A stretch of DNA of 64,000 bases from Quercus robur. Taxonomy: Eukaryota; Streptophyta; Magnoliopsida; Fagales; Fagaceae. The translations under genes were made by a program, and so were the position numbers. This document shows positions 60,967 through 64,000 of the stretch, piece by piece (the stretch's first letter is position 1; each line of letters opens with the position of its first letter). The notes below the pieces were generated by a model that was not told where the DNA came from, searched no databases, and saw nothing but the letters and a program-made list of their open reading frames with translations. Location: the NCBI RefSeq assembly GCF_932294415.1, contig NC_065539.1, positions 33,668,001 to 33,732,000 of the forward strand, read 5' to 3'.

Positions 60967-61668
60967 TGTGGGGCCAAGGAACTTATGATCTGGCCCACGC
61001 TCTATTATGGCTCGGGGCCTATGGCGAGGAGGGCGTATGCCGAGGACGAATGGGGAAAGGCCGAAGTGTCGATGGGAACAGCCAAGGACGACCCTGTCCT
61101 CGACACTCCAGGACTTCAAGGGGAAGAGCAACTTCTCGACGAAGGCCGCCCCCAAAAAGCCCCCTGAAGGAGATGCGAGTGGAATGGGACCCACGTGGGG
61201 GTACGGTGCAAAACTGGTTCAGGGTAAATACGTCCCCTCCGCATTAAATGCACCCGCCGGCGTCCTGACCGTGTTAATGAGAAAAGACGCCTGGACAGGG
61301 TGACTTCGATCATCGCAACTAACAGAAAGCAAGGAGGGACAGTTGATGGGACGGGTATAGAAGCAGGCACCTGCCTGACTAACAAGTGGAGGGCTAAAAT
61401 CAATCAAGAAGGGCTATATAATGTGAAGGTTAATGCACCAAGAAAGGGGCTGGGAAAAATGGCCAAAAACCAGAGCCTCCCAGCCCGCCTCCTGGAGAAA
61501 AACTCCTAGGGCGAACACGATTTAATTATGCATGAACACCACGAAAAACCCACCGTCTGGTGACCAAGGTCTAGCATTTCAAACCCACGCTCTATAAATG
61601 ATATTGTTTGGGTATTTTTACGTGCAAACCCAACACTATTACGGGTCGTTACAAATTGTGTCCTTACA
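60967..61668 (+). repeat. 5' LTR of element C
   Basis: 702 bp with TG/CA ends; TATA box at about 61412-61421. A decayed form of the GTCCTCGG hairpin motif occurs near 61090-61105. Confidence 0.85.
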
Positions 61669-61688
61669 ATTGGCGCCATCTGTGGAAA
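61669..61688 (+). promoter_or_regulatory. Primer binding site of element C
   Basis: ATTGGCGCCATCTGTGGAAA follows the LTR; it differs from A and B by transitions. Confidence 0.65.
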
Positions 61689-61919
61689 AGGGCTTGTGTT
61701 TTGGCACAAGTAGTGGGGTGAGACAATCCCTCACATCATTTCCAACAGCCGGATGTAGTGTTCTAGCGTAAAGTTCCACTAGGGGCTACGATTCTTCACT
61801 AGGGGTTACGTTTCTTCACTAGGGGATGCGCTTCGTAGCGTCAGCAGCACGGATGGTTCTAGGGGCTTGGCCGAGTTACTAATCCCCCTAAACCAAGGTC
61901 CCACGCCATAGTCAAACTA

Positions 61920-62215
61920 CTTATCAAAATCAAGTTTTGGACAGAACCAAGGTATTGCATGGTCCTCGGACTCAAACCTATGGGGAAACCAACTACTTAT
62001 CAAAATCAAGTTTTGGACAGAACCAAGGTATTGCATGGTCCTCGGACTCAAACCTATGGGGAAACCAACTACTTTAAAATCAAGTTTTGGACAGAACCAA
62101 GGTATTGCATGGTCCTCAGACACCAACTACTTAAATATCAAGTTTTGGACAGAACTAAGGTATTGCATGGTCCTCGGACTCAAACCTATGGGGAAGCCAA
62201 TTACTTTAAAGAAAC
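61920..62215 (+). repeat. Tandem array of element C, four copies
   Basis: TTTTGGACAGAACCAAGGTA starts near 61935, 62011, 62085 and 62142 (period about 75 bp; the third unit is shortened by an internal deletion). Core shared with A and B. Confidence 0.9.
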
Positions 62216-62582
62216 CTGGATACTAAGCAGGACCTAACACTACACGTGACATCTCGGATGATGCCTATATCTCCATTGAATGATGGTCAGACATGAGTTC
62301 AAGGCTCTACAGGTGCAGGTAAGCTAACGTTCTGAAACATGATTCTAGATATATCGCATGCACAACTATTCATACGTGATAAGATAATTGGTTCAAAATT
62401 CATAAACAATAGTAAGTATCGGCAAGGGCAACCAACAAGTAACCAAAAGGAAAAAGGAAGAAAAAATTTTTATATACGTGTTCAACAGGTTCAAACTACT
62501 AGCAGGTTACAAAGTTTTCAAAATGAAAAAGAAATAAGTTAATCGTTAAACTAAAAACAAATACGAAGCCTGGCCGGGGTTT

Positions 62583-64000
62583 CTACTTCTTTAATTTTGC
62601 ATCGGCCACGTCCTGGGAAGGAGGAACGGGATTAGCTTCGGTGCCCTGGATGACAGCCCCTTCTGGGAAAGGCTGAGCGGGATCGGCGTTGGTGCTCTGG
62701 GGGACCACAGTAAGGGGAATTGCCAGTAGGGGCTGGCCAAGTATGGCTGGCTCTTCGGCATTAGGCATCTGGGTGCCGACCACAGGCTCAGCAACCTCTT
62801 CGGGTACCTCAGGATCCGTACGCTGAGATGCTTCTATCACATCCTGAAGCTCTCCCCCTTTAAGCGGCTCGCCAGGAGAGGCGCCAACCTCTACAGTATC
62901 CGACTGAGTGACCCCTCCCTCATGTTGGTCGCTCACGGCCTTGGACCTGGTGGAGGTGTCCTCACGGATGGCTGTGGGGTAGAATATGTTCTCCGCTTTC
63001 CATAAATCGGATGAAGCATTCACCCCAGCTCGCTTCAACGCCTCTTCCCAAACCTGGGAGCAGTAAAGCCTGCATACTCCGGGAATCTGGGCTTTAAGGA
63101 TGGCTTGGGTTTCAGCTACCCCCGCGTTATAACCATCATCCTTAGTTGTTTCCTTGGCAGCCTCAGCCTCGTTTCTAGCAAACTCGACCTCCCGCTTGGC
63201 CCTCATAGCTTCGTCGCAGGCATACTCCGCCACACCTTTGTCATGCTCTGCCGTGATCAGTCTTTTATTTAAATCTTTGATCAGCTCTTTAGCTATTCGC
63301 AATTGATCCTCGGCTTCTAGCAGATGTTTTGTTTGACCCTCGGCCTGTTTTTGGGCGCTAGCTAAACCCGCCGAGGCGCTATCCCTATCTCGGATGGCGT
63401 CTGTTAGGGTAGCCTTGGCCTTGGCGAGGTCATCCTCAGAAGTTTTGAGAGTCCGCGTGGCCACTAAGCGCTTGGAGCGTTCATTCTCGGCCGCCTTACT
63501 CTGGTTGTTCACCTCTTCCTCCATCCTATAGGTGGCCTAGAGAGCCTGTCAAGGGAGATAAACACATCGTGAACGACAAAACCGGGAGTGAGAGTTAATA
63601 AAGTTTTAGGGTTCAATAGCCTTACCATGCCCAAGTACCTCTTCGTACTGAGGAAGACCTCCTGCATCCTCATTTTCTTCAGCCCATCCACGTCGGTGGG
63701 AAGTAGCATGGTTCTCCCTAGTGCGTCTGCCACGTAGCCACCCTCGCCATCTCCAAGGTCCCTCATGGACGCAGTTTCCAGCAGTGGCCCCCCGTGAAGC
63801 ATTGAGGCAGGAAGCCAGGCACTGGGCGAAGATTGGGCCTCGATCCCCTTTCCCTTGCCTTGGGAAGATTGGGATTCAGTCTCTTTACCCTTACTTTGGT
63901 GCCCAATCTTCAGTTGTTTCGCACGAAGGGCTTCCTCCCTCTCCTTAGAAGGTTGGGATTTTCCCCCATCCATGGTTTCCTTGCCCTTGGGGCTCCTCTT
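62583..64000 (-). CDS. Antisense gene of element C: coiled-coil protein, two exons visible, 5' part outside window
   Basis: The minus strand, from the window end, has an exon to 63626 ending GGGCATG|GTAAGGC, an 80-bp intron (63625-63546, acceptor CCTTGACAG) and an exon 63545-62583. The first part contains KQLKIGHQSKGKE and LLETASMRDLGDGEGGYVAD...MRMQEVFLSTKRYLGM. The second is a long coiled coil (SEDDLAKAKATLTDAIRD, LLEAEDQLRIAKELIKD, EFARNEAEAAKE), then AILKAQIPGVCRLYCSQVWE, and an acidic Pro-rich tail ending in two Lys. Only one stop is seen in the visible part (at the start of the last exon, CTCTAG against ATCCAG in B), so this copy is the best preserved. No known enzymatic motif. It lies against the element's direction. 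Confidence 0.8.

Follow-up and report, generated by a model that had tools for sequence, protein, structure and literature searches.

Large retrotransposon derivatives (LARDs) have long terminal repeats (LTRs), a primer-binding site (PBS), a polypurine tract (PPT) and an interior of several kb without gag-pol, and their interiors are held to be noncoding. VANDALs, which serve below as a working analogy, are DNA transposons. Among recently active Retand clusters, an antisense TRP28 gene with predicted DNA binding and a function called unknown was present in 97% according to the available text of Vicient 2025 (PMC11963269), a survey that used reverse transcriptase (RT) as bait. Non-autonomous Retand elements with only tandem repeats between the LTRs have also been described (PMC12477314, available part), and the accessible text on Grande describes gene23 as having its own upstream promoter and a protein located in the nucleus (PMC7264820). 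In Arabidopsis, VANC of VANDAL binds arrayed motifs and methylation is lost (PMC5735166, excerpted text). The present analysis concerns a 64,000-nucleotide stretch of the Quercus robur genome (the window; GCF_932294415.1, NC_065539.1, positions 33,668,001 to 33,732,000, forward strand), in which two short LTR retrotransposons, elements B and C, lack gag and pol and carry a predicted three-exon gene on the antisense strand.

Comparison with the Retand elements carrying antisense TRP28 showed the same combination of an antisense TRP28-type gene and a tandem array, which in those elements lie between pol and the 3' LTR, and the LTR size of B and C falls within the 315-1,194 bp reported there (PMC11963269, as far as its text was accessible). 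The surveyed elements keep RT, whereas gag and pol are absent here, and the gene here has three exons while the word "intron" is absent from the main text of that paper. The position of the gene near the 3' LTR is also that of the antisense open reading frames (ORFs) of Grande gene23, RIRE2 and PvRetro13 (PMC7264820, available part). An earlier sequence-only reading of the window had stated that antisense ORFs occur in Tat-lineage elements, which is right (PMC11963269 and PMC7264820). The non-autonomous Retand of Silene latifolia (Kejnovsky 2006, as described in the part of PMC12477314 available) has LTRs, an expanded array and no gag-pol, and element A of the window looks alike; unlike these array-only elements, B, C and a third subfamily, D, keep the antisense gene. 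LARDs resemble B and C in LTRs, PBS, PPT and lack of gag-pol, but the interior here is not noncoding, since it holds an antisense gene with codon-phase constraint and under selection.

Both antisense TRP28 genes and non-autonomous Retand elements with nothing but an array have been described before; what is new is the TRP28-type gene kept alone under selection. No report of pol-less elements keeping a TRP28 gene was found in the literature searched (top-ranked papers, with few subscription journals). The explanation preferred here, with a probability of about 60%, is that B, C and related elements form a Retand-like pol-less lineage that is copied in trans and keeps a functional antisense gene, most likely encoding a nuclear DNA-binding factor for its own array or LTR.

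The pol-less elements and their genome-wide family

The 5' LTR of element C (60967-61668, plus strand) begins with TGTGGGGCC and ends with TCCTTACA (final letters TTACA). It is followed on the same strand by the PBS (TTGGCGCC... from 61670) and a pol-less-specific leader (61669-61914), which can be aligned with the leaders of A, B and further C copies, and by a tandem array (61915-62185; Tandem Repeats Finder, TRF) with a unit of ~76 bp whose core is conserved across families. The antisense gene occupies the minus strand, with exon 3 at 62583-63545 (320 codons and a stop, by tblastn), intron 2 at 63546-63625 and exon 2 from 63626 to 64000, running beyond the window. The element extends past the window end to L009:5903 (L009:1 being window position 60601), and this locus supplies exon 1, the PPT and the 3' LTR (L009:5202-5903), which shares 97.3% identity with the 5' LTR. 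The element is flanked on both sides by CAAGT, a perfect target-site duplication (TSD) of 5 bp.

Element B is complete at 49887-55500 in reverse orientation and has the same order of parts as C, namely LTR, PBS, leader, tandem array, antisense gene, PPT and LTR. Its minus-strand parts are the 5' LTR (54777-55500, by comparison of the LTR pair), the leader and PBS (54591-54776, by alignment to other pol-less leaders), the array (54179-54590, TRF) and the 3' LTR (49887-50607). The two LTRs are 94.5% identical, and the 5-bp flanks, read directly, match at 4 of 5 bases. On the plus strand, a putative promoter core (50853-50896) has GGGCGGGAAA at 50853 and TATAAAT at 50890, 293 and 256 bp before the ATG, respectively. 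It precedes exon 1 (51146-51653), with a TRP28-like domain, one stop and 82% amino acid identity to C-type exon 1; exon 2 (51751-52767, approximate ends), with a basic SKRKRSSKGKE motif and a donor 2 without GT; and exon 3 (52846-53808), 60% identical in amino acids to C-type exon 3 across 320 residues. The B gene has eight early stops.

The sequence-only reading had given C an LTR, primer site, tandem array and a long, "nearly intact" antisense gene, and had described B as repeating that plan with all borders visible. The plan held for both elements, C being complete once L009 is added, and so did the long antisense gene. For the gene of C, "nearly intact" is a fair if inexact description: within the window exon 3 has one early stop at its start, and in L009 exon 2 has one stop and exon 1 a deletion that shifts the frame.

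A search for further copies had been proposed as a check. In the 786 Mb of genome searched, exon 3 of C gave 40 scored places (89-100% identity) out of 351 first-look candidates, and exon 3 of B gave 40 near-full-length places (86-100%) and one short piece out of 374 candidates. The best 20 of the 40 scored C-like places were studied, and the whole three-exon gene was present in 19; the twentieth, L019, is truncated, with only the 3' part of the gene left and the exon-1 part and 3' LTR missing, and was excluded from gene counts. Two LTRs were found in 19 of the 20 places, three of which have the 5' LTR clipped by the edge of the stretch. Since L011, L019, L023 and L027 had no full LTR pair in the stretch examined, 16 pairs were used, with a divergence of 2.1-5.6% (mean 3.7%). 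Perfect TSDs (5/5) were present in at least 11 of these 16 copies (nine found automatically, L012 and L013 read directly), the automatic end-finder leaving the other five unresolved.

The claim that gag-pol was lost while the antisense gene was kept was confirmed: queries made from pieces of a pol-bearing relative and from the window's own pol gave no match in any of 21 interiors (the 20 C-like places, L019 being bounded on one side only, and B), and the identical queries recovered their targets in the pol-bearing element L030. With two LTRs, PBS, PPT, TSD and no gag or pol, these copies are non-autonomous LTR retrotransposons. The array motif count ranged from 2 to 21 per copy. In subfamily D, three copies were read from the 5' LTR to the array or gene end; 5' LTR, leader and array were present, no gag or pol was found in the 5' halves of all three, and the exon 3 end of the gene was visible in two. 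The D exon-1 frame in the genome exon-1 search had 181 residues.

The antisense gene and its selection

The gene consists of three exons (508 + 1049 + 963 bp) predicted to encode 839 residues. That it is spliced, as had been claimed, is backed by matching phases and conserved GT/AG sites: of the 19 copies with the gene, 18 have donor 1, acceptor 1 and acceptor 2 conserved, counted site by site, and all 19 have donor 2. The ATG and the final stop were kept in all 19. Early stops were absent in three copies and frameshifts in seven, with one copy free of both. A hand count of the best 150 genome exon-1 matches (82-100% identity), a score-ranked list that favours good copies, showed 84 to be stop-free.

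A TATA box precedes the ATG by 251-258 bp in 17 of the 19 C-type copies and by 256 bp in B, and GGGCGGGAAA lies 33-37 bp upstream of the TATA in 16 of the 19 copies and in B. A pol-bearing relative carries TATATAAG upstream of its exon 1, and GGCGGGAAA may resemble an E2F site. These motifs suggest that the antisense gene has its own putative TATA promoter just inside the 3' LTR.

The predicted protein parts are a TRP28-like domain, a basic motif resembling a nuclear localisation signal (NLS) and a long helix. PF04195 (Transposase_28) gave sub-threshold matches to the same stretch in all six exon-1 proteins searched (four pol-less, two pol-bearing) and was the top match in five. The best match of exon 1 among solved structures had an E value of 0.18, and no exon-1 relatives were matched in viral contigs. 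The basic motif of exon 2, SKRKRSPKGKE or a near variant, was present in 18 of the 19 copies and in B, and two pol-bearing relatives, one of which is interrupted by stops, have it in altered form. The single-sequence AlphaFold2 model of the 317-residue C exon-3 protein had one helix at residues 2-129, with a predicted local distance difference test (pLDDT) score of ~74-92 there (mean 62) and low confidence past residue 129; the exon 3 product is probably a long helix forming a coiled coil. A long helical C-terminal part, and the retention of the gene in a parasite borrowing Gag-Pol, would also suit a protein that takes part in the transposition process itself, through Gag-like assembly or the export or packaging of RNA, and not in transcription or silencing. 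Such a role is considered unlikely in view of the NLS-like motif, the nuclear location reported for the Grande antisense protein (PMC7264820, accessible text) and the DNA binding predicted for TRP28 (PMC11963269, accessible text).

C-to-T changes at CG and CHG sites were very common (0.08-0.09 per site per LTR pair), which makes plain dN/dS misleading, and the mutation spectrum was therefore taken from the 16 LTR pairs. The neutral expectation by the Nei-Gojobori method (NG86), whose counts exclude stop codons, was 0.60 over the whole gene, with separate values of 0.49, 0.65 and 0.61 for exons 1, 2 and 3, respectively. Within-C counts omitted gapped codons, codons with changes at more than one position (92) and codons present in fewer than 15 copies. 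Corrected omega over the 19 C copies was 0.64 (0.58-0.72) for all changes, 0.69 for private changes and 0.49 (0.35-0.68) for changes shared by at least three copies; without CG/CHG transitions, the values were 0.53, 0.58 and 0.43, respectively. For all changes, exons 1-3 gave 0.58, 0.55 and 0.78. Exon 1 taken by itself has few shared changes (7 nonsynonymous, 10 synonymous), and the interval of this class extends to 1.01.

Between subfamilies, raw dN/dS against C was 0.29 for B, 0.25 for B2 (L053; bootstrap range 0.20-0.31 against one C copy) and 0.34 for D (L052), where 0.60 is neutral. Exon 1 alone gave 0.14 for B and 0.12 for B2 against C, and 0.12-0.18 over the subfamilies, the neutral value being 0.49. 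A dN/dS ratio well below 1 had been named in advance as the sign of selection, and the ratio proved to be well below neutral both for shared changes within C and between subfamilies. On these substitution patterns, the gene is under purifying selection within and between pol-less subfamilies. A count of stops had also been proposed; 45 were observed in 16 copies and 38.1 were expected from post-insertion decay alone, and the closeness of the two numbers indicates that the copies were mostly intact at insertion. The earlier suggestion that a benefit to the element explains why the gene was kept gains support from the dN/dS values and the stop count.

If the pol-less elements were recent deletion products, the antisense gene could be a passenger that has not yet decayed. 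That many copies have stops or frameshifts, only 1 of 19 being free of both, and that LTR pairs differ by just 2-6% would fit this, but B and C are 0.54-0.60 apart in synonymous divergence (dS) with constraint still strong, the stops match post-insertion decay only, and omega is below 1 for changes shared among pol-less copies. A passenger gene is accordingly judged very improbable.

In the control frames, omega was 1.16 (+1) and 1.37 (+2) on the coding strand and 1.31, 0.69 and 1.48 in the antisense frames, and noncoding sequence gave 0.90-1.18; the frame at 0.69 is the antisense frame that shares the wobble position. Changes at codon positions 1, 2 and 3 numbered 331, 237 and 472, respectively, over the three exons. 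Chance open frames are rejected on this codon-phase constraint over three exons, and sense-strand coding on the control frames. Structural RNA is rejected as well: no Rfam match reached the gathering score in 49800-64000, and ARAGORN found no tRNA in the window. A conserved sense-strand RNA (for packaging or dimerisation) or antisense RNA might still take the place of a protein as the selected feature, given that the array and promoter region are conserved, that the accessible text of PMC7264820 considers a possible regulatory role of antisense RNA, and that the wobble-sharing frame is also low. However, constraint tracks codon phase and the other four frames lie at 1.16-1.48, and the chance of this alternative is put at a few in a hundred. 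A selected protein, as the preferred explanation has it, agrees with the codon phase.

Pol-bearing relatives, element A and other features of the window

Homology is clear between this gene and the TRP28-type antisense gene that pol-bearing Retand-like elements carry in the same genome. One such relative lies at 1594-8141 (plus strand) of the window, where TRF and homology searches placed RT to integrase at 1594-4630, an array at 4676-5321 and a broken antisense homologue at 8141-6128 (minus strand). This first element of the window (1-8800) looks truncated, the exon-1 similarity ending at 8141 and AT-rich sequence following. A further element (L030/L031) has identical LTRs, pol, an array and homologues of all three exons (exon 1 54%, exon 2 28% and exon 3 34% identity); its exons 1 and 2 are open, as are 188 codons in the exon-3 piece available. 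The array adjoins the 3' end of the gene in the pol-less elements, in L030 and in the first element of the window. Many, though not all, elements of the Retand lineage have an array between pol and the antisense gene. Pol-bearing relatives are numerous, and an open frame of 1104 codons is present at dozens of the 150 RT places listed; the group looks young, the copy read having identical LTRs.

Ten RT neighbours of the 150 listed were sampled by their 3' part. Exon 1 was found in seven at 49-59% identity, L041 had an exon 3 piece and array, and L035 and L038 had nothing. A match to the PBS region of the short elements was present in 5 of 7 pol-bearing 5' pieces (L042-L046) and in L030, the type of PPT is common to the short elements and L030/L031, and the region before the 3' LTR was matched in L036. 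L042, whose position makes it the same element as L036, has an LTR 3' end that matches the corresponding end in B at 86% over 93 bp. These shared PBS, PPT and LTR-end signals make copying in trans plausible.

The leader between PBS and array could be aligned among A, B, C copies and three D copies, and in the pol-bearing 5' pieces the match to it spans ~20-55 bp from the PBS and then gives way to gag homology. An exon-1 tree of 19 rows, for which 9 of the 19 C copies were taken, split the 10 pol-less rows (9 C and B) from the 9 pol-bearing rows at 98/99, the bootstrap being not fully settled. The shared leader and the exon-1 tree point to one long-lived pol-less lineage. An origin of C as a fresh deletion derivative is rejected on the shared leader and the deep B-C divergence. 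It could also be supposed that pol-less copies arise repeatedly from pol-bearing masters whose gene is selected, the constraint being inherited; the pol-bearing elements do have this gene, every part of it that was read in the copy with identical LTRs is open, and the survey of them is small (10 places, 3' part). Against this stand the leader of A, B, C and D, for which the pol-bearing pieces read gave no match past the PBS region, the separation of the exon-1 rows, and the lack of pol in 20 C places, B and the 5' halves of three D copies. Repeated origin is regarded as improbable, and a single lineage that keeps its own gene is preferred.

Element A (22832-27697, plus strand) has LTRs at 22832-23620 and 26907-27697, an array at 23889-25118, the TSD AGTAT on both sides and the same PBS, leader and PPT, and no significant match to the antisense gene was found in it. 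Its array contains 16-17 units, and in the 1.8 kb past the array the minus strand has an open frame of 152 aa (26289-26747), for which Pfam gave no match. Array units were cut at a shared 8-bp motif, a choice that favours conserved units (4 from C, 3 from B, 16 from A and 3 + 3 from two pol-bearing elements); the median identity was 93% between C and B and 91% for A against C or B, while units of the two pol-bearing elements were 67-77% identical to these. Full-length LTR identity was 71% between C and B, and 54% and 56% for A against C and B, respectively. Either the array unit is strongly constrained or arrays have been exchanged between families.

Other features of the window include an intact unspliced ammonium transporter gene between B and C (58222-59718, minus strand; PF00909, E 7e-131), a minisatellite at 43028-43354 with 21-bp units of the GCCCTATAGTGGCGTTTTTAA type, similar units of which occur in the C flank in L009, a perfect 90-bp tandem duplication adjoining element B (56019-56198) and a perfect 117-bp duplication (17415-17651).

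Proposed role of the antisense gene

Under the preferred explanation, the short elements would be non-autonomous LTR retrotransposons derived from Retand-like elements (Tat clade, Ty3/gypsy) of the same genome. One ancestor would have lost gag and pol while keeping the LTR ends, primer site, PPT, array and antisense gene, and the pol-less lineage would then have split into at least three gene-carrying subfamilies (B, C and D). Gag-Pol supplied in trans would copy these elements, as the shared cis signals suggest, and the antisense gene would stay functional in the replicating lineage. The loss of gag and pol implies that others can supply them; the antisense gene was not lost, so that its product is probably not freely supplied by others and benefits its own copy. 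The product would be of advantage to the very copy encoding it, and the proteins of pol-bearing families, being diverged, would be no free substitute. A family-specific factor present mainly while its own copy is active fits best. The most likely mechanism would be a nuclear DNA-binding factor that recognises the array or LTR of its family and opens or activates the element, VANC-like in effect, with array binding and silencing escape as the leading candidates for its details. Packaging, silencing escape and array binding had been put forward as possible roles in the sequence-only reading; what was observed here that bears on them is indirect, the conservation of the array.

VANC and VANDAL offer a working analogy, in that a protein encoded by the element and tandem noncoding motifs occur in one element. 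Binding and methylation loss have been demonstrated for VANDAL, whereas the evidence here consists of array conservation and an NLS-like motif. By extension of this analogy, it is tentatively proposed, at well below even odds, that the TRP28 gene and the array form a matched factor-target module, equivalent in an LTR retrotransposon to VANC with the motifs it binds. B, C and D would be regulator-only parasites that borrow Gag-Pol and must supply their own factor because it is family-specific and benefits the copy expressing it, and A elements would be second-order parasites borrowing both.

Several observations weigh against the preferred explanation. The PF04195 scores (14-22.5 bits) are all below the gathering score of 26.2. 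Exon 3 is weakly constrained (raw 0.43-0.49 where 0.61 is neutral; corrected 0.78 for all changes), and the contrast between private and shared changes is modest (odds 1.44, P = 0.041). Stop depletion alone does not discriminate, the stop ratio being 0.54 in the gene and 0.41-0.79 in noncoding pseudo-frames (small counts). Nine stop changes are common to at least two copies, although these may be recurrent, since all but one are CG/CHG transitions. Conservation of the array could stem from exchange between families, and no close pol-bearing partner was found among the 10 of 150 listed places sampled, the nearest exon 1 being 59% identical.

In pol-bearing elements, conservation of the TRP28 gene could be a side effect of many things. 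Where gag and pol have been removed and the gene is kept under selection, the gene should serve the element by itself. With a 2.5-kb coding sequence that has its own putative promoter, and with a compact array, the short elements offer a minimal system made by nature, and a selected gene in elements without enzymes suggests that the TRP28-type gene acts for the element itself.

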